Source: Polyangia bacterium
GTDB taxonomy: Bacteria > Myxococcota_A > Polyangia > Fen-1088
DNA length: 59,853 bases
Assembly: GCA_036268875.1 (NCBI GenBank)
Contig: DATATI010000052.1
Location: forward strand, 1-59,853
Direction: 5' to 3'
Part shown: piece by piece, positions 8,981-20,360 of the stretch
Position numbering within the stretch: the stretch's first letter is position 1
Layout: each line of letters begins with the position of its first letter
Notes under the pieces: generated by a model
Database searches by the model: none
Told to the model about the DNA's origin: nothing
Seen by the model: only the letters and a program-made list of their open reading frames with translations
Position numbers and translations under genes: made by a program

Positions 8981-10351
8981 ATGCGAGAAGAGAGATCCGG
9001 CACGAGATTGAATTGGGCGATGGGCTTCGCCGTCGTGGCGACCGCGGCGTGGGCTTTCCCGGCGCGCGCCGCGCCCGCTGACTCCCAGGTCGAGACGCCC
9101 ATCGACCGTGCGCTGGCCACCGAAGCCAGGCTGCCGACGATTCTACGTGTGATCGGCGAGCGAAGTCCCGACCTGCGCGAGGCGACCGAGCGCGTGCGCG
9201 CCGCCGAGGCGCGGAGCGGTGCAGCGGCGCGCCTGCCGGATCCCGAGCTCAAGGGCGAGCTGCGGGGCGTGCCGCTCGCTCATCCGGTGAGCTTCGATCA
9301 GGCGAACACGATCATGCTCGGGCTGCGCCAGTCGTTCCCCGCCTGGGGCAGTCTGGACGCCCGCGAGCGCGCCGCCCGCGAGGACGCCGCCATTGCCGGG
9401 GATACGGCGGAGGCGCGCCGACAGGAGGTCACGGCGCAAGCCCGTCGTGCGTTCGCCGCCTATGCCAGCGCCGACCGCGCATACCGCATTCACCTCGAGC
9501 ACGTGGGGCTGACGTCCCGGGTGGCTGAGATCGCCCGTTCGCTGTACCAGGTCGGGCACGGGTCGCAACAGGATCTGCTGCGTGCCCAGGCAGAGCTGTC
9601 GCGCCTGCACGTGGACGTCGCAGGGATCGAGCAGCAGCGCCGTTCGGCGCAGGCATTACTGAACGCCCTGATGGACCGCGATCCCGACGCCGCGCTGGGC
9701 CCCCCGCCCGAGATGTCTTCGCCCGAGGTCTTCGCCTCGGCCGAGGATACCGCCGCCGCCGACCAGAGCCTCGACCAGCGGCGGCCCGAGCTCAAGGCGG
9801 CCGCCCGCGCCGTGAAGCGCAGCGAAGCCGCGCTGGATGTGGCGAAGCGCGAGGCAAACCTGCCGTCATTGATGGTCGGCGCCGACTACTGGTACATGCC
9901 GACCCAACCCGTTCATCACGCCTACGGGGCGATGGTTTCGATGAGCCTCCCCTGGCTGAACCTGCGACACCGCGACGAAGTGAAGGCCGCCGAGCGCGCC
10001 AGCGCCGCCGAGAGAAGCGCCTTGCGGGCCCAGCAGGCAGCGGCGCGCTTCCAGCTTCGCGATGCCGATGCCAAGCTGCGGGCCGCCCGCGAGACTCTCG
10101 CGCTTATTCACAATCAGGTGCTGGCCGACGCGCGACGGAGCTTCGAATCGGCGCAGGCCCTGTTTCAAAGCGGCCACGGAGACGTGACGCCGGTTCTCGA
10201 CGGGGCTCGAAACTACCTGCAGGTCCGGATGGACGAGGTGCGGGCGATGGCCGAGCTGGAGTCGAGCCAAGCGGATTACGCGCGGGCTGCTGGCTTGCCC
10301 GTCGTGGGGATGACGAACGGCACCGACCGGCAGGAGGATCAACGACAATGA
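8981..10351 (+). CDS. czcC: Outer-membrane efflux channel, CzcC/CusC (TolC) family
   Basis: A 456-residue protein with ATG at 8981 behind GTGAGGAG. Residues 1-32 are a signal peptide ending in ARAA. Two OEP repeats follow, rich in long amphipathic helices (for example ELSRLHVDVAGIEQQRRSAQALL), with the short beta segments expected for the trimeric channel (YWYMPTQPVHHAYGAMVSM). It would carry metal ions across the outer membrane together with the next two products. Its TGA overlaps the next ATG (ATGA at 10348-10351), showing translational coupling. Confidence 0.9.
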   Translation: MREERSGTRLNWAMGFAVVATAAWAFPARAAPADSQVETPIDRALATEARLPTILRVIGERSPDLREATERVRAAEARSGAAARLPDPELKGELRGVPLAHPVSFDQANTIMLGLRQSFPAWGSLDARERAAREDAAIAGDTAEARRQEVTAQARRAFAAYASADRAYRIHLEHVGLTSRVAEIARSLYQVGHGSQQDLLRAQAELSRLHVDVAGIEQQRRSAQALLNALMDRDPDAALGPPPEMSSPEVFASAEDTAAADQSLDQRRPELKAAARAVKRSEAALDVAKREANLPSLMVGADYWYMPTQPVHHAYGAMVSMSLPWLNLRHRDEVKAAERASAAERSALRAQQAAARFQLRDADAKLRAARETLALIHNQVLADARRSFESAQALFQSGHGDVTPVLDGARNYLQVRMDEVRAMAELESSQADYARAAGLPVVGMTNGTDRQEDQRQ

Positions 10352-11946
10352 CTAGCCCAAAAACTGAGAACGGGCATGACGAGCGGCCGAACGCCGAGGA
10401 GCGCATTCCACCCGGAGTCGGCACCATGTCAGTGGTTCGGTGGGGCCTCGTCCTGGTGATGGGATTGATTGCTCTGCTCTCCATCGCCTACGCGACCGGA
10501 GCGTTGGCGAAGGTGTCGTTCGGCGGCACGCACGCCGCACAAAAAAGTCTCTACTACTGTCCGATGCACCCGTCGGTCGTGCAGGACCATCCCGGCGAAT
10601 GTCCGATCTGCAGCATGACGCTGGTGCCGAAGCCTGAGGGTGGGTCCGACAAGAAGATGAAGCCGGCGACAACCAGGGCAGGAAGCCAGGCTCCAGCGGC
10701 TGAGGCCAAACCGGTGCCCGGTCTCGCGGATTTGGAGCTGCCGGCTGATCGCATCCAACTCATCGGAATGCGGACAGCCAAGGTCGAACGCGCCGCACTC
10801 GGTGATTCTTTGCGCGCCGTCGGTGTCATCGCGGCGAACGAACGGGGTCTTTCCGAGATCTCGGTGCGGTTTTCAGGATGGGTGCAGCAGCTCATGGTGT
10901 CCGAGACCGGTCAGCGGGTCCGGCGGGGCGAGGTGCTGGCCAACGTTTACAGCCCCGAAGTGCTGCGCGCGGAGCAGGAGTACTTGACCGCTCGGGGGTG
11001 GGACACGAAGGCTGGCGCGACCGGGGATTCCGTCGCTGTCGGGCACCACGGCGATTCCAGCCTTGGCGCGAGCATGCAAGGCGGACTGGCGGCGGACGCC
11101 CGCCATCGCCTGGAGCTGCTCGGTATTGCCGCCACCGAGATCGAGGCAATGGCGTCGCGAGGCAAGGCCAGCGACAGCGTGCCGATCCGCTCGCCCTCCG
11201 ACGGATACGTCACGGCCCGGAACGTCGTCCCGGGCGCGGCGATCCAGGCCGGCGCGCCGCTGTTCGAGGTGGCGGACCTTTCGAAGGTTTGGTTCTTGGC
11301 TGACGTATTTGAGCAGGATGCCGCGCGCATCCGCATCGGACAAAAAGCAGTCCTCGAACTGGCCGCGTATGCCAACGAACATTTCAACGGCCGCGTCCAG
11401 TTCATCTCTCCGACGCTCAACACCGCAACGCGAACGCTGCGCGTGCGTCTCGAATTCGCGAACAAGACGGGAGCAGGCGGCGTGAAGCTGCGGCCGGGCA
11501 TGTACGGGACCGTCGCCCTGGAGCTGCCGTCGGCCTCAGGGCTGGTGATCCCCTCCGAAGCCCTCGTCGACACCGGCGAGAACCAGTACGTCTTCGTCGC
11601 CAAGGCCGAGGGACATTTCGAGCCGCGCTTGGTGCAGGTCGGCGCCCGCGCTGGTGAAAAGGTGCAGGTCGCCAGTGGCGTCGCCGAAGGCGAGACGGTC
11701 GTGACGACCGGAAACTTCCTGCTCGATTCTGAGAGCCGCCTCCGCGCCGCCATCGACGGAGAGAGGGCTGCGCCGGCGGCGGCCTCTGGCGGTGGCGCTG
11801 GCGAAGGTCCCAACTGCGCGAACGACTTCGACGCCACGCGCTTCCCCGACAAGGCTCGAGCCTGCCGAGCCTGCGAGCGCCAGCATCGCGGCATGGGCTC
11901 GATGGAACAAGACTGCAAGGCCGCCATCGAAAAGCCCTGGAAGTAA
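10348..11946 (+). CDS. czcB: Membrane-fusion protein CzcB/CusB with N-terminal heavy-metal-binding domain
   Basis: A 532-residue periplasmic adaptor. Residues 31-50 are a membrane anchor. Residues 69-95 carry a heavy-metal-binding domain (YYCPMHP, then CPICSMTL), found in CusB-type proteins and P-type ATPases for copper or silver. Lipoyl/barrel-sandwich and beta-barrel regions follow (SGWVQQLMV, RSPSDGYV, DVFEQDAARIRIGQ). The last 45 residues are an unusual tail with four Cys and several Met (CRACERQHRGMGSMEQDC), not part of the usual adaptor. The metal-binding head suggests a monovalent copper/silver system, although CzcB versions with it exist. It starts in an ATGA overlap with czcC and ends 12 bases before czcA. 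Confidence 0.9.
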   Translation: MTSPKTENGHDERPNAEERIPPGVGTMSVVRWGLVLVMGLIALLSIAYATGALAKVSFGGTHAAQKSLYYCPMHPSVVQDHPGECPICSMTLVPKPEGGSDKKMKPATTRAGSQAPAAEAKPVPGLADLELPADRIQLIGMRTAKVERAALGDSLRAVGVIAANERGLSEISVRFSGWVQQLMVSETGQRVRRGEVLANVYSPEVLRAEQEYLTARGWDTKAGATGDSVAVGHHGDSSLGASMQGGLAADARHRLELLGIAATEIEAMASRGKASDSVPIRSPSDGYVTARNVVPGAAIQAGAPLFEVADLSKVWFLADVFEQDAARIRIGQKAVLELAAYANEHFNGRVQFISPTLNTATRTLRVRLEFANKTGAGGVKLRPGMYGTVALELPSASGLVIPSEALVDTGENQYVFVAKAEGHFEPRLVQVGARAGEKVQVASGVAEGETVVTTGNFLLDSESRLRAAIDGERAAPAAASGGGAGEGPNCANDFDATRFPDKARACRACERQHRGMGSMEQDCKAAIEKPWK

Positions 11947-11958
11947 CGGGAGAACGTC

Positions 11959-14900
11959 ATGGTCGAGCGAATCATCGAATTCTGTGCGCGCAATCGGGCT
12001 CTGGTGCTCATCGCCGTCGCGTTCGCCGTCGTCGGATCGACGGTGGCCATGCGCCACGCAAAGCTGGACGCCATTCCCGATCTCTCCGATCCCCAGGTCA
12101 TCGTCTTCTCCGAGTGGATGGGGCGCAGCCCGACCCTGGTCGAGGATCAGGTCACCTACCCCATCGTCTCGAAACTGATCGGCACCCCGCACGTCACCGA
12201 CGTGCGCGGCTTCTCGATGTTCGGGATGTCGTTTTGCTACGTCATCTTCGAGGAGGGAACGGACATTTACTGGGCGCGCAGCCGCGTCCTCGAGTACCTG
12301 AACGGCCTGCGGGGAACGCTTCCCGAAGGCGTCGCGCCCAACCTCGGTCCAGACGCGACCGGGATCGGCTGGGTGTTCCAGTACGCCCTGGTCGACAAGA
12401 GCGGCAAGCACGGTCTCGACGACCTGCGAACGTTCCAGGACTTCACGCTCCGCTACGCCTTGGGCAGCGTGCCGGGCGTCGCGGAGGTGGCCAGCGTCGG
12501 TGGCTACCAGAAGCAGTATCAGGTCACCGTCGATCCGAATCGCCTGCGCGCGTTCGGCGTCTCGCTGAAAGAAGTCACCGAGGCGATCCGCCAATCCAAC
12601 AACGACGTGGGTGGCCGCATTCTGGAGATGTCGGGCCGCGAATACTACGTTCGGGGTCGCGGCTACATCACCAGCTTGTCGGCCATCGAGAACGTGACCG
12701 TCCGATCCAGCGGGCCTGCCGGCACTCCGATCTTGGTGAAAGACATCGGCAGCGTTCGATTCGGTCCGGACATCCGGCGCGGGCTGCTCGAATGGAACGG
12801 CGAAGGCGAAGCCGTCGGCGGCATCGTGGTCATGCGCTATGGCGAGAACGCCCTGGATGTCATTGAGCGGGTGAAGAAGAAGATCGCCGACCTCAAACCC
12901 AGCCTGCCCGAAGGCGTCGAGGTGGCGATCGCCTACGACCGCTCGGGGCTGATCGAACGGGCGATCGATACCCTCAAGCACGCCCTCATCGAAGAAGGGA
13001 TCACCGTGAGCCTGGTGATCATCTTGTTCCTGCTGCACTTCCGCAGCTCGCTGCTCCCCATCCTCTCGCTGCCGATCAGCGTCGCGCTGTCGTTCATCCC
13101 GATGGTGCTGCTGGACATCCCGTCGACGATCATGAGCCTGGGCGGGATCGCCATCGCCATCGGCGCCACCGTCGACGCCGAGATCGTGATGATCGAGGCT
13201 GCCCACAAGAAATTGGAACACGCCGGCCCGGGCGCCGACCGCCACAGGCTGCTGGCCGAAGCGGCCAAGGAGGTGACGCCGGCGATCTTCTTCTCGCTGC
13301 TGATCATCGCGGTCGCCTTCCTGCCGGTGTTCACGCTGACCGGCCAGGCCGGACGATTGTTCAAGCCGCTCGCCTACACCAAGACGTTCGTCATGTTGAT
13401 CTCGGCGGTCCTGTCGATCACCTTCGCGCCCGCGCTGCGCGATCTTCTGATTCGCGGCAAGATCAGGCCCGAGCACAAGCACCCGGTATCGCGGTTCCTG
13501 ATCCGGGTCTACGAACCGTTCGTCTACATCGCCCTGCGCCGCCCAAAGTCGACCATCGCCATCGGCCTGTTCGCGCTGGCCTCCGCGGTGCCGCTGGGCA
13601 TGAAGCTCGGCCACGAGTTCATGCCCCCGTTGAACGAGGGCGATCTGCTGTACATGCCGATCACCTTCCCGAACATCTCGATCGAAGAAGCCAAGAACCA
13701 GCTTCAGCATCAGGACCGAATTCTGAAGACGTTTCCCGAGGTCGAGACGGTGTTCGGAAAAGTCGGACGCTCCGAGACCCCGACCGACCCGGCGCCCATC
13801 ACGATGGTGGAGACGACCGTCCGTCTGCGCCCGCAAGAGCAGTGGCGTAAGACGTTTCACGCGCGCTGGTACTCGTCGTGGGCGCCGCCGTGGCTGAAAC
13901 CGCTGTTCCATCCGCTGTGGCCAGAAGAGCGGCGCCTCACCTGGGAGGAGCTCACCACTGAGATGAACAAGAAGATGCAGTTCCCCGGATGGACCAACGC
14001 CTGGACGATGCCGATCAAGACCCGCGTCGACATGTTGACCACGGGCGTGCGCACGCCGATCGGGATCAAGGTGTTCGGCACCGATCTCGAAGAGGTGGAG
14101 AAGATCGGAACCACGCTGGAGCACGTGATCGCGCCGATCAAGGGCACGCGCAGCGTCCTTTACGAACGCAGCCTGGGCGGCCTCTATGTGGACATCATCC
14201 CGAAGCCCGAGAAGCTGGGGCGGTATGGCCTGCGCGTCGCCGATGTCGAGCGGGTGATCGAGAGCGCCATCGGTGGCACGCCGATCGGAACCACCATCGA
14301 GGGACGCAATCGCTTCACCATCAACGTGCGTTATCCGCGCGACCTGCGCGGAGATCTGGAATCCTTGCGACGAGTCCTGGTCCCGATCGGGCCGGGTGGC
14401 TCCTCGATGCCGGCCAACAGCAGCGGCAGCGGCAACGGCATGAGTGGCGGCACGGGAACGCAAGGCTCGTTGTGGCCACCACTCGGGAGCACCGGCATCG
14501 TGCTTGCCCAGAACATGGACAACATGGCAGGTGGCGGCGCGTCCCCGGGCGGAGGCGGGCCGCCGCGCTTGTCGCTCCCGTCGGGCCGGACGTCCATGTC
14601 CGACGCCTCGGGCGGAGGCATGGCCGTGGGCGGAGGCAGCAACATGACCGGCGCGGCGGGAATGGCCGGCGGTCCGATGCTCGGCGGAGGGACGCCAGGC
14701 CCTGGTTCTCCAGAGGTTGGGGGGCAATCTTTCATCCCCCTCGGCGAGGTCGCCGACATCCGCATCGCCGGTGGGCCGCCGATGGTGCGGGACGAAGCCG
14801 GCTTGTTGGTAGGCTACGTCTACGTTGACATCGACCAGGGCCAGCGCGACATCGGCGGCTACGTGAACGAGGCCAAGGAGGTCGTGGCCGGCGCATTGGC

Positions 14901-15750
14901 CGACGGCACGTTGAAGCTGCCCGCCGGCACCTACCTCAAATGGACGGGGCAATACGAGCAGCTGCAAGAGATGGCGGCGCGCATGAAACTGGTCGTGCCG
15001 CTCACGCTGCTCATCATCGTGATGCTGCTTTTTCTGCAGTTTCGGAACGTGATCGAGGTGCTGATCATCTTGCTGTCCATCCCCTTCGCGCTGGTGGGCA
15101 GCGTCTGGTTGATGTGGCTGCTCGATTACCGCGTGTCGACGCCGGTCTGGGTGGGGATCATCGCGTTGGTCGGCCTGGCCGCCCAGACCGGCATCATCAT
15201 GATCGTCTACATCGACAACGCCTTTCACAAACGTCAGGCGGAAGGACGCATCAACAACCTGAAGGACATCATCGCCGCGCACATGGAAGGCACCGTCCAA
15301 CGGGTTCGCCCGAAGTTGATGACGGTCTCGACGATGTTGATCGGCCTCGTTCCGTTGCTGTGGGCCACCAGTTCAGGCTCGGACGTGATGAAGCGGATCG
15401 CGGCGCCCATGGTCGGTGGTCTGCTGACCTCGGCTTTTCTGACGCTGGAGATCATCCCGGTGGTGGTCACCTACTGGCGGCAAGAGCAGCTCTTGTGGCA
15501 GCGATTGGCCGCGCTCGGGCCCGGGCAGCTGCGCAGCTTGAATCGATCGGCGGCGGCGATCGCCGTCGGCGTGGGGCTGGCGGCGTCGACGGCCGTCGCG
15601 CGGATCTACGTCACGATGCCACCCGGCCTGTTCGTGCTGGGACAGCTGGTGGCCGCCGCTGTGTTCCTGGCCGGCGTCGCGGTCTATCTGTTTCGCCGCC
15701 CGGACGCGTACGCGGTGGTGTGGCCTGTGATCGAAGAGAGCCGCCCATGA
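11959..15750 (+). CDS. czcA: RND heavy-metal efflux pump CzcA/CusA with large insert
   Basis: A 1263-residue inner-membrane proton antiporter; the family is usually about 1040. The canonical proton-relay TM4 segment is present (GGIAIAIGATVDAEIVMIE, D406), as are the LPEGV, ARSRVLEYL and MVRDEAGLLVGYVYVDI blocks. Two additions explain the length. An approximately 110-residue Gly/Ser/Met/Pro-rich insert lies at about 812-922, between VLVPIGPG and FIPLGEVADI in the periplasmic region. A C-terminal extension of about 85 residues with two extra hydrophobic helices follows the last normal helix. The Met of the VDMLTTGV segment, which I believe matches CusA M623, is kept. It is the third gene of the operon, and its stop overlaps an ATG. 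Confidence 0.92.
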   Translation: MVERIIEFCARNRALVLIAVAFAVVGSTVAMRHAKLDAIPDLSDPQVIVFSEWMGRSPTLVEDQVTYPIVSKLIGTPHVTDVRGFSMFGMSFCYVIFEEGTDIYWARSRVLEYLNGLRGTLPEGVAPNLGPDATGIGWVFQYALVDKSGKHGLDDLRTFQDFTLRYALGSVPGVAEVASVGGYQKQYQVTVDPNRLRAFGVSLKEVTEAIRQSNNDVGGRILEMSGREYYVRGRGYITSLSAIENVTVRSSGPAGTPILVKDIGSVRFGPDIRRGLLEWNGEGEAVGGIVVMRYGENALDVIERVKKKIADLKPSLPEGVEVAIAYDRSGLIERAIDTLKHALIEEGITVSLVIILFLLHFRSSLLPILSLPISVALSFIPMVLLDIPSTIMSLGGIAIAIGATVDAEIVMIEAAHKKLEHAGPGADRHRLLAEAAKEVTPAIFFSLLIIAVAFLPVFTLTGQAGRLFKPLAYTKTFVMLISAVLSITFAPALRDLLIRGKIRPEHKHPVSRFLIRVYEPFVYIALRRPKSTIAIGLFALASAVPLGMKLGHEFMPPLNEGDLLYMPITFPNISIEEAKNQLQHQDRILKTFPEVETVFGKVGRSETPTDPAPITMVETTVRLRPQEQWRKTFHARWYSSWAPPWLKPLFHPLWPEERRLTWEELTTEMNKKMQFPGWTNAWTMPIKTRVDMLTTGVRTPIGIKVFGTDLEEVEKIGTTLEHVIAPIKGTRSVLYERSLGGLYVDIIPKPEKLGRYGLRVADVERVIESAIGGTPIGTTIEGRNRFTINVRYPRDLRGDLESLRRVLVPIGPGGSSMPANSSGSGNGMSGGTGTQGSLWPPLGSTGIVLAQNMDNMAGGGASPGGGGPPRLSLPSGRTSMSDASGGGMAVGGGSNMTGAAGMAGGPMLGGGTPGPGSPEVGGQSFIPLGEVADIRIAGGPPMVRDEAGLLVGYVYVDIDQGQRDIGGYVNEAKEVVAGALADGTLKLPAGTYLKWTGQYEQLQEMAARMKLVVPLTLLIIVMLLFLQFRNVIEVLIILLSIPFALVGSVWLMWLLDYRVSTPVWVGIIALVGLAAQTGIIMIVYIDNAFHKRQAEGRINNLKDIIAAHMEGTVQRVRPKLMTVSTMLIGLVPLLWATSSGSDVMKRIAAPMVGGLLTSAFLTLEIIPVVVTYWRQEQLLWQRLAALGPGQLRSLNRSAAAIAVGVGLAASTAVARIYVTMPPGLFVLGQLVAAAVFLAGVAVYLFRRPDAYAVVWPVIEESRP

Positions 15751-15800
15751 AGCAATCGTCACGGGCGTCTTCCGCCATTTGCCGATATCATCGTCGTGGG

Positions 15801-16826
15801 ATGATCAGCGTGAGGAATTTCAGCGCCGTCGCTCTCCTGGTTGCTCTGACCGCCGCCTGTGGCAATTCCTCCCCATTGCCGCAAGGGGGGAACGACGCCG
15901 CCGGCGGTGGCGCAGGTGGCGCGGCTGGAACGGGAGGAACCGCAGGCGGGACCGGCGGCGCCCCTACGGACGGTGGCTCGGACGCAGGGACGGGGTCTCC
16001 TTGTCCCAATCAACCGCCCGACAATGGCGCGGCCTGCCCGAAGGAGGGACTGGCGTGCGGCTGGGGCGACGACGTCCGGGGCGACAGCTGCCGGACGTTG
16101 GCCACCTGTTCGTCGCAGCACTGGAACGTGACCACCCCGAATGCGACTTCTTGTCCGCCGCTGCACGACCTCGGCGCGTGCCCGGCCGACACCAGCGTGA
16201 CCTGCACGATGGACACGACCTGCGCGAAGCCAGACGGCAGCCTGTGTCGCTGCACGAGCTGTCGACCGACGGCTCCGATCTGTCAAAACCAGGGCGCCCC
16301 CAGTTGGTATTGCCCCGCCCCCGTGACGACCGCCGGCTGCCCGACGGCCGAGCCAAACTTCGGAACCGCCTGCAACGTCGAAGGCAAAGAATGCGGCTAT
16401 TTTGCGCTCGACTGCGGACACCCGGACCGGGTGTGTTCGCACGGTGTCTGGACGCCCGGTCAAACTTTGGGATGCCCGATATCATCGCGTCGCGCGAAGA
16501 AGGACATTCGCTATCTTTCAGACGACGACGTCCGGTCGATCGCGTCCGAGACCTTGCGCCTGCGCCTGGCGACGTACGAATACAAAGCGGCGCCGTACGC
16601 CGGTCGTCGTCACCTGGGTTTCATCATCGAGGACAGCCCCGGTGTTCCGGCGGTCGATCGGGATGGCAGCCTGGTCGATCTCTATGGCTATACCAGCATG
16701 CTGCTCGCCACGACGCAGGCACAGCAGCGGCAGATTCAATCCCTCCAGCAACAGGTCAAGGATCTGCGGCGAGCGATCGATCGTCAGCGGCCCGACCGCT
16801 CTGGCAACGTCGCGTCGCCGCGATAG
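15801..16826 (+). CDS. Lipoprotein with Cys-rich domain and C-terminal Peptidase_S74-type chaperone domain
   Basis: A 341-residue protein. ATG at 15801 gives a textbook lipoprotein signal (ALLVALTAAC, lipidated C20). Another ATG at 15747 overlaps the czcA stop (ATGA) and would add 18 residues before it, so coupling to the pump is possible. Residues 26-60 are a Gly/Ala spacer. Residues 63-225 are Cys-rich with paired Cys (CPNQPPDNGAACP, CRCTSC). From about 228 the sequence SSRRAKKDIRYL, then HLGFIIED, VDLYGY, and a coiled-coil QRQIQSLQQQVKDLRRAI match the S74 intramolecular chaperone domain of phage tail spikes, including the Ser-x-x-x-Lys pattern at the self-cleavage site. The function of the bacterial version is unknown. 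Confidence 0.7.
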   Translation: MISVRNFSAVALLVALTAACGNSSPLPQGGNDAAGGGAGGAAGTGGTAGGTGGAPTDGGSDAGTGSPCPNQPPDNGAACPKEGLACGWGDDVRGDSCRTLATCSSQHWNVTTPNATSCPPLHDLGACPADTSVTCTMDTTCAKPDGSLCRCTSCRPTAPICQNQGAPSWYCPAPVTTAGCPTAEPNFGTACNVEGKECGYFALDCGHPDRVCSHGVWTPGQTLGCPISSRRAKKDIRYLSDDDVRSIASETLRLRLATYEYKAAPYAGRRHLGFIIEDSPGVPAVDRDGSLVDLYGYTSMLLATTQAQQRQIQSLQQQVKDLRRAIDRQRPDRSGNVASPR

Positions 16827-18283: not shown

Positions 18284-19279
18284 TCATCGGGTCGTGATGC
18301 TGACCGCCAGGTCGAGGAGCTTGCTGGAATAGCCCCACTCGTTGTCGTACCAGGCGATCAGCTTCACGAAGGTCGGGTCAAGCTGGATGCCCGCCTTGGC
18401 GTCGAACACCGACGTGCACGATTCGCCCCGCAGGTCGGTCGACACCACCTCCTCGTCGGTGTACCCCAGCACGCCCTTCAGCGATCCTTCGGAGGCCCGT
18501 TTCATCGCCGCACAGATGTCGGGGTAGCTGGCCGGGCGGACAAGCTCGCACGTCAGATCGACGACCGACACGTCCGAAGTGGGGACCCGGAACGACATTC
18601 CGGTCAGCTTCCCCTTCAGCGTCGGGAGCACCCGCGTGACGGCCTCGGCCGCGCCCGTCGACGCTGGAATGATGTTCTCCAGGATTCCGCGGCCGAAGCG
18701 CCAGTCCTTGCCGGACACCCCGTCGACGACCTTCTGGGTCGCCGTGGTCGCGTGGACCGTCGTCATCAGGCCGCGCTTGATACCGAACGCGTCGTCCAGC
18801 ACCTTGGCGATCGGAGCCAGACAGTTGGTGGTGCACGACGCCGCCGAGATGATCGCCTGGCCTGCGTATTGATCGGTGTTGACGCCGTAGACGAAGATCG
18901 GCGTGTCGTCCTTGGAGGGCGCCGACATGATCACCCGCTTGGCGCCGGCCCGCAGATGACCCTCGGTCTTCTCCTTGGTCAAGAAGATCCCGGTCGATTC
19001 GATCACCACATCGACCCCCACCTCGTTCCAGGCCGACGCGGCCGGATCTTTGATCGCGGTGGCGCGGATGGGCCGACCGTCCACCACCAGGAAGCCATCC
19101 TTGACCGCCACGTCGCGCCGGAACCGGCCGTGAACGGAATCGTGCTTCAGCAGATAAGCCAGGTGCGGAAGCTCGAGGAGATCGTTCACCGCCACGATCT
19201 CCAGGTCGGGGCGCTCCATCGCTGCCCGGAACGCCACCCGGCCGATGCGTCCAAATCCGTTGATGCCGATCCTGATCAT
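18284..19279 (-). CDS. gap: Glyceraldehyde-3-phosphate dehydrogenase
   Basis: A 331-residue enzyme that oxidises glyceraldehyde 3-phosphate to 1,3-bisphosphoglycerate with NAD in glycolysis. ATG at 19279 gives the canonical [13 protein letters not shown] Rossmann start; an upstream start would add 21 residues without homology. Catalytic C149 (SAASCTTNC) and H176 (TTVHATTA) fall at the textbook positions, and the terminal WYDNEWGYS block is intact. Residues N32-D33 suit NAD preference. Length is standard. It diverges from a GlxA-type regulator, with about 100 bases between the starts. Confidence 0.96.
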
Positions 19280-19382
19280 CACCGCGCCTTTCTTTCGGTT
19301 TTTCCCCAGGCTAGCCTGAAAGCGACGTGGCCTGAAAGACAAAAAGATTGCGTTTCCAGCCAGCCCCGGACAACCTCAACAG

Positions 19383-20360
19383 GTGCGCCGCCGCGCCAAA
19401 CGGGTCTGGTTTCTCGTCGCCCCCGGCACCGGCATTCTGAACATCGCCGGTCCGTGGGAGGTGCTCGGCCACGCGAACGACGTGCTTGGTCGCGCCGCCT
19501 ATGCGCTAGCGTTGATCGGGCCGCGCGCGCCGGCGGTACAGATGCGGCACGGGCTGATGGTGGGTGGCGTTCGTCCGTTGCCTCGAGCCGGCGCCCGGCT
19601 TCCGGACATCGCGATTGTGGCGGGCGGATCGCCGCGCCGTCCCCTGCCCGACGGGGAAGCGCGCCTGGTCTCGTGGCTGCGTCGCCGTCATCAGCAGCTC
19701 GCGACCGTGGTTTCGATCTGCACCGGCGCTTTCGTCCTGGGAGAAGCGGGCCTGCTCGACGGACGCCGCGCCACCACCCATTGGCTTCATCTCGGCGATC
19801 TGCAGTCGCGGTTTCCCGCTGCCCGGGTCGTCGACGACGGCATCTACGTGCACGACGACGGGGTGTGGACGTCGGCGGGACTGACGGCGGGAATAGACCT
19901 CGCCCTGGCGCTGGTCGAAGAAGACCACGGGCACGGCGTGGCGATGGCGGTGGCCAAAAGAATGGTCCTGTTTCTGCGGCGGTCCGGAAATCAAGCGCAG
20001 TTCAGCGCCGCCCTGAAGCGGCAAGAAAAAGAGCCGGCCAAGCTGCGCGACGTCGCAACCTTCGTCCTCGAGCACGTCGACCAGGCGCTGCCCGTGGAGC
20101 GCCTGGCGGCGGGGATCGGGATGAGCCCCCGCACGCTGAGCCGCTGGTGCCGCGCGCACTTCGACGAATCACCCGCCGAGCTGGTGCGCCGCCTGCGGAT
20201 TGACGAGGCCCGGCGCCTGCTGGAAGAGACGCCCCTTCCTTTGAAGGACATCACGGCACGCACCGGCTTCGGAGACGCCAGCACCCTGTGGCGCGCGTTC
20301 ACCCGTCGCCTGGGCGTCACGCCGGCCGCGTACAGACAGCGCTTCGCAGCCGCTATTTGA
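19383..20360 (+). CDS. GlxA-type transcriptional regulator (DJ-1/PfpI plus AraC HTH)
   Basis: A 325-residue protein with a GTG start at 19383. Residues 5-190 form a DJ-1/PfpI-like domain with the nucleophile-elbow segment VSICTGAFVLGEAGLLDG. Residues 215-320 form an AraC-type double helix-turn-helix (VERLAAGIGMSPRTLSRWCR and LPLKDITARTGFGDASTLWRAF, here given as separate blocks). Members usually sense small nitrogen compounds or act as activators of nearby genes, but the ligand is unknown. It diverges from gap and its last 8 bases overlap the convergent outer-membrane gene. Confidence 0.88.
   Translation: MRRRAKRVWFLVAPGTGILNIAGPWEVLGHANDVLGRAAYALALIGPRAPAVQMRHGLMVGGVRPLPRAGARLPDIAIVAGGSPRRPLPDGEARLVSWLRRRHQQLATVVSICTGAFVLGEAGLLDGRRATTHWLHLGDLQSRFPAARVVDDGIYVHDDGVWTSAGLTAGIDLALALVEEDHGHGVAMAVAKRMVLFLRRSGNQAQFSAALKRQEKEPAKLRDVATFVLEHVDQALPVERLAAGIGMSPRTLSRWCRAHFDESPAELVRRLRIDEARRLLEETPLPLKDITARTGFGDASTLWRAFTRRLGVTPAAYRQRFAAAI

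Follow-up and report, generated by a model that had tools for sequence, protein, structure and literature searches.

A Peptidase_S74 chaperone domain at the C-terminus of a family of cysteine-rich lipoproteins in Myxococcota

Introduction

S74 chaperones are known mainly from phage beta-helical spikes; MYRF is a eukaryotic exception, and the fibres of Bdellovibrio are a recent bacterial case. The window analyzed here, i.e. the whole 59,853 nt stretch of Polyangia bacterium contig DATATI010000052.1, carries an open reading frame that appears to place such a domain on a small Cys-rich lipoprotein, directly 3′ of a set of heavy-metal efflux genes. The locus raises the question of whether the S74 domain is genuine, whether it cuts itself off and, if so, which part of the chain stays with the cell. 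The original prediction, made from this DNA alone, was of a lipid-anchored, Cys-rich surface protein that is encoded in a metal-efflux operon and released by self-cleavage.

Results

The open reading frame and its features

The features of the locus are listed below (window positions, all on the + strand).

8981..15750, +, heavy-metal RND efflux genes upstream: outer membrane factor, membrane-fusion protein with a heavy-metal binding domain (HMBD), RND pump (local neighbours)
15747..15800, +, possible extension of the N-terminus from an in-frame ATG, which forms ATGA with the stop codon of the RND pump gene and has GAAGAGAG before it (sequence)
15801..16826, +, lipoprotein with C-terminal S74 domain, 341 aa; 359 aa from the alternative start at 15747 (open reading frame, homologues)
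15801..15860, +, predicted signal peptide and lipobox LTAAC, Cys20 at 15858–15860 (pattern, sequence)
15861..16001, +, Gly/Ala-rich linker (sequence)
16002..16481, +, disulphide-rich domain with 20 Cys, ending ...GCPI (no structural match in the PDB)
16473..16475, +, Cys225, at P3 of the predicted cut site (invariant across the 40 intact members)
16482..16823, +, Peptidase_S74/intramolecular chaperone auto-processing domain (Pfam, model, structure matches)
16482..16484, +, Ser228, predicted nucleophile, P1′ (alignment; MyRF S587, PMC8326128)
16497..16499, +, Lys233, predicted partner of Ser228 in S-x4-K (alignment; MyRF K592, PMC8326128)
16680..16787, +, C-terminal helix, predicted coiled coil, residues 294–329 (AlphaFold2 model)

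The lipobox, Gly spacer and Cys-rich domain of the original prediction are all present in the 341 aa protein (pattern, sequence), and its coordinates and its numbering of the Ser residue (228) are right. MISVRNFSAVALLVALTAAC followed by GN matches the PROSITE-type lipobox pattern (LTAAC), and lipidation at Cys20 is predicted. Twenty Cys residues are found between Cys20 and Ser228 and none C-terminal to Ser228. The sequence SSRRAKKDIRYL occupies positions 228–239 and HLGFIIED positions 271–278. No clear ribosome site is seen at ATG15801. The in-frame ATG at 15747, which overlaps the pump stop codon (ATGA) and has GAAGAGAG upstream, is judged by eye to be the more likely start; it would extend the signal peptide by 18 aa and otherwise change nothing. 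The source genome carries one copy of the gene.

The S74 domain

PF13884 (Peptidase_S74) matches positions 228–278 with an E-value = 2.1e-6 and 28.4 bits, above the Pfam gathering cut-off of 22 bits, and phage tail PHROGs match the same C-terminal part (E-value = 5e-5 to 1e-3). The Pfam model matches 26 of 39 relatives at E = 0.01, the others falling below; used alone it recovers only part of the family, which is thus easily overlooked.

An AlphaFold2 model gives a mean pLDDT of 84.8 and a pTM of 0.64, both for the monomer only, and places a helix at positions 294–329. The top Foldseek match is the MyRF ICA domain (7dc3, E-value = 8e-4), and many phage tail-fibre S74 proteins are matched in the viral library. 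VIA yields Z = 7.7 for MyRF, 6.5 for the T5 fibre, 6.3 for endosialidase 3gw6 and 5.6 for the intramolecular chaperone 3gud; the next row, Z = 3.9, is unrelated. A VIA Z below 8 is by itself modest, but the fold match is convincing because the four S74 entries stand together above the rest and the sequence match agrees. The predicted fold is thus that of S74 with a long C-terminal helix, as in the MyRF, T5 fibre and endosialidase chaperones. The coiled coil of the original prediction stands in part: the helix is predicted, but heptad periodicity alone is not significant for this protein (p = 0.066). The heptad register is the same in six members, and for most members the periodicity is not significant against shuffles. 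The S74 domain itself, with its Ser228/Lys233 pair, is genuine, as Pfam, the alignment, AlphaFold2, Foldseek and VIA all indicate, and it is carried by a Cys-rich lipoprotein.

The Cys-rich part, modelled alone, has a pLDDT of 77. Compared with known structures, this model gives no Foldseek match better than E = 1.4 and no VIA row with Z ≥ 2, a null result for the model that need not mean a new fold. In PDB searches by sequence the single protein gave chance matches only, and two profiles, one of the entire family and one limited to the Cys-rich part, gave none. No upstream beta-helix is recognizable in the Cys-rich part by the model (pLDDT 77), Foldseek or VIA.

Extent and architecture of the family

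Of 97 related genomes searched with the protein, 26 gave a match. A scan of GTDB genomes with the patterns LYGY.SM plus a Gln-rich stretch, which do not include Cys225, Pro226, Ser228 or Lys233, gave 42 loci. Almost all of these are labelled Myxococcota or "Deltaproteobacteria"; two Polyangium isolates, y55x31 (L070) and 6x1 (L075), are among them, as are single MAGs labelled Acidobacteria and Oligoflexia. An alignment of 16 sequences was too diverse for the pattern scan and a tighter one was used instead. Searching 379 genomes of the phylum with a profile built from 39 members gave matches at E = 1e-6 in 82; a few matches are weak or cover only the Cys-rich part. Genomes other than the source genome have up to five matches each. 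The family is not represented in NCBIfam, and no description of S74 in myxobacterial lipoproteins was found in the open-licence papers searched. Thus a Cys-rich lipoprotein–S74 family is widespread in Myxococcota and apparently undescribed in that literature.

The common plan consists of a signal peptide, often a low-complexity linker, Cys-rich modules, the S74 domain and a C-terminal helix. The Cys-rich modules differ between subgroups, and the Cys-rich half is very variable across the family, the S74 half being the more conserved part. By a strict lipobox rule 26 of 40 members score, of which L076 is a false positive and L089, a fragment, probably is too; several of the members that do not score have near-miss lipoboxes or uncertain start codons. 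Kazal-type protease inhibitor domains precede the Cys-rich and S74 parts in L060 (8801–10444) and L063 (8930–10444), and L007–L009 contain sequence similar to these inhibitor regions. L069 (8400–8777) and L097 (9914–10126) contain S74 fragments without Cys-Pro-x-Ser, situated after a shared unrelated leader (LIELVYHR); these fragments are probably relics.

In a tree of S74 domains the 40 members form one side of a branch with support 100/98, apart from 22 other S74 domains of the phylum, a separation that rests on few columns. This bears on whether a phage tail-fibre gene is decaying here. An S74 domain would be typical of such a gene, but the frame is open, a lipobox is present and no close phage relative was found (one match at E = 0.09, none in viral contigs). 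The spread of the family over 82 of the 379 genomes, as one clade apart from the other 22 domains, likewise makes a phage remnant scarcely credible.

Conservation at the predicted cut site

All 40 intact members have Cys-Pro-x-Ser-x4-Lys, and in 36 of them the residue that precedes the Ser is Ile or Val. The motif is also present in 27 of 27 members drawn by profile without a peptide pattern, a set that overlaps the first in part. The S74 region, taken from Cys225 on, has a mean pairwise identity of 47% and only 12 invariant columns in 117; Cys225, Pro226, Ser228 and Lys233 are among the 12. Since these four residues are absent from the search patterns, their invariance is not an artefact of selection. 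Part of the conservation of LYGYTSM is such an artefact, as that pattern was used in the GTDB scan.

In mouse MyRF the catalytic pair is S587/K592, equivalent to S911/K916 of endosialidase NF, and an Ala mutation of either MyRF residue abolishes cleavage (PMC8326128). Bd3182 of Bdellovibrio also self-cleaves at the S74 Ser (PMC10769870). Self-cleavage of the S74 domain studied here is likely.

The Asp that usually follows the Ser (consensus SDxxxK) was not treated as defining for S74. It is found in none of the 40 members, where R, S, T, L, A, Q or V replaces it; SD is present in 18 of the 22 other S74 domains of the phylum, and the Asp is absent in four. Given the missing Asp, the main rival to self-cleavage is that the domain trimerizes but no longer cuts and stays attached for good, capping the distal end of the Cys-rich domain as a trimer. 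The replacement of the Asp in 40/40 members is consistent with this, as is the absence of a recognizable upstream beta-helix in need of a chaperone. However, a pure trimerizer would need neither the Ser nor the Lys, and both are invariant, while the published dyad consists of Ser and Lys and does not include the Asp (PMC8326128). A natural relative, L010, also stops at the cut position. On balance a non-cutting cap appears unlikely, though it is to be taken seriously.

L010 (related genome, about 1440–2172) is 47% identical over the N-terminal part and ends ...SPCPVVN followed by a stop codon where other members continue CP[IV]S. The Cys-rich part can thus exist by itself, with a C-terminus close to the one that cleavage is predicted to leave. 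L025, L028 and L029 are further relatives that have the Cys-rich part and no S74. L042 and L054 belong to a second S74 clade, with SDxxxK, and show a lipobox, a Ser/Gly linker and a Cys-rich stretch with CPV or CPR directly before the Ser. Thus either two or more S74 lineages have acquired Cys-rich lipoprotein parts, or the S74 domain was swapped at the cut site. In L044 an S74 domain of the SDxxxK clade is likewise joined to a Ser/Gly-rich lipoprotein with a Cys-rich stretch.

Genomic neighbourhood

The membrane-fusion protein encoded upstream is of the CusB/HlyD type with a heavy-metal binding domain. Because it carries the HMBD, the adjoining pump looks Cus/Sil-like rather than Czc-like, and the name CzcA in the original prediction seems not to fit. 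The pump (1263 aa) contains a Gly/Met-rich insertion of ~100 residues (window about 14375–14740), which probably lies in the periplasm and may bind metal. Co-transcription of the lipoprotein gene with the pump is plausible at this locus from the gene order and the ATGA overlap, and no promoter-like site was found between the two genes, which is weak evidence for co-transcription.

The pump adjoins the gene only in this genome, so that a metal-efflux operon is not a trait of the family: no RND pump was found near other members among the 42 loci (flank up to 10 kb) and the shorter loci. The only recurrent neighbour seen is uvrC, directly upstream of the family gene in L062, L063 and L064; other members adjoin unrelated genes. 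Genes for GAPDH and a GlxA-type regulator are found near the lipoprotein gene (window 18284–20360), and also within ~9 kb of the divergent L092 member (L092 13224–16003).

Which part would be released

Because the Cys-rich part is the one that bears the lipid anchor, a cut between Ile227 and Ser228 would shed the chaperone and the coiled coil. Release of the surface protein by self-cleavage, as originally predicted, has the polarity reversed, the lipid being N-terminal to the scissile bond. The predicted anchor position would rule out a released Cys-rich surface protein unless lipidation fails. A metal-linked surface protein freed from the cell in this way would fit the numerous Cys residues and the position of the gene directly 3′ of an RND metal pump gene, which it may overlap at ATGA. 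However, anchor and Cys-rich domain lie on the same side of the cut, and other members have uvrC or unrelated genes in place of an adjoining RND pump; this reading is highly improbable. Nothing ties the lipoprotein to metals.

Alternatively, the function could reside in the shed C-terminal fragment, acting as a free trimeric signal or binding protein. The greater conservation of the S74 half, next to a very variable Cys-rich half, is in favour of this, but the S74 domains characterized in the papers cited act as chaperone and protease of the part that precedes them (PMC3742443, PMC10769870), and relatives with a Cys-rich part and no S74 exist. A functional shed fragment is thus improbable.

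Discussion

A proposed mechanism

The reading that appears to be the most probable, held with some reserve, is that of an envelope lipoprotein whose S74 domain trimerizes a disulphide-rich ectodomain before cutting itself off, so that a Cys-rich protein remains anchored. The protein would be exported and, as predicted, lipidated at Cys20. Three S74 domains would then meet through their C-terminal helices, as in the MyRF and phage homologues, and the Cys-rich parts would fold and form disulphides side by side. Ser228, activated by Lys233, would cut after Cys-Pro-Ile227; the residues are conserved and the reaction is proposed by homology. The ~114-residue chaperone and coiled coil would be shed while the Cys-rich part would stay lipid-anchored, probably as a closely packed trimer. 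At the cell surface the anchored part would probably serve in a structural or binding role. This would be, most simply, the phage S74 mechanism with a different client.

MyRF cleavage requires the S74 trimer and not contacts with an upstream beta-helix (PMC8326128); thus trimerization without such contact can suffice for cleavage. The position of Cys225 at P3 suggests a coupling of disulphide formation and cleavage. Tentatively, oxidation or correct pairing of Cys225 might be needed before the S74 trimer cuts, which would make the domain a checkpoint for the oxidative folding of Cys-rich lipoproteins and not of a beta-helix.

Comparison with known S74 proteins

Endosialidase NF (S911/K916, PDB 3GW6) and the T5 L-shaped fibre (PDB 4UW8) share the S74 fold, its C-terminal position and the Ser-x4-Lys with the lipoproteins. 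In phage tail spikes the client is the triple beta-helix of the fibre, whereas here it is a disulphide-rich lipoprotein; the lipoprotein family also differs in lacking the Asp after the Ser and in having an invariant Cys-Pro before the cut. The MYRF/MrfA ICA domain (PDB 7DC3) is the best structural match, and MYRF is likewise membrane-tethered. However, MYRF is anchored C-terminally and its cut frees the N-terminal part, the reverse of the N-terminally anchored lipoprotein.

The myxobacterial TraA, from the same phylum, is also a Cys-rich surface protein, a likeness by description only; TraA is not known to carry an S74 domain.

The S74-group MAT fibres of Bdellovibrio (e.g. Bd3182, PMC10769870) are, like the lipoprotein, exported cellular bacterial proteins that end in S74. 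They are ~1000 aa beta-helical adhesins with SDxxxK and, after the signal peptide, a ~130 aa beta-rich domain. In contrast, the 341 aa protein has S[not D]xxxK and, in the N-terminal position, a lipobox, a Gly/Ala linker and a Cys-rich part; with neither a fibre of ~1000 aa nor the ~130 aa domain, it falls outside the MAT family. The S74 clients in the papers cited have an upstream beta-helix, and in the Cys-rich lipoprotein none is recognizable.

S74 has been adopted by Cys-rich lipoproteins in about one fifth of the Myxococcota genomes sampled, with the cut site tied to an unvarying Cys-Pro motif. Confirmed cleavage would mean that S74 can mature a quite different kind of client, and would make the domain a small self-trimming trimerizer for disulphide-rich proteins.
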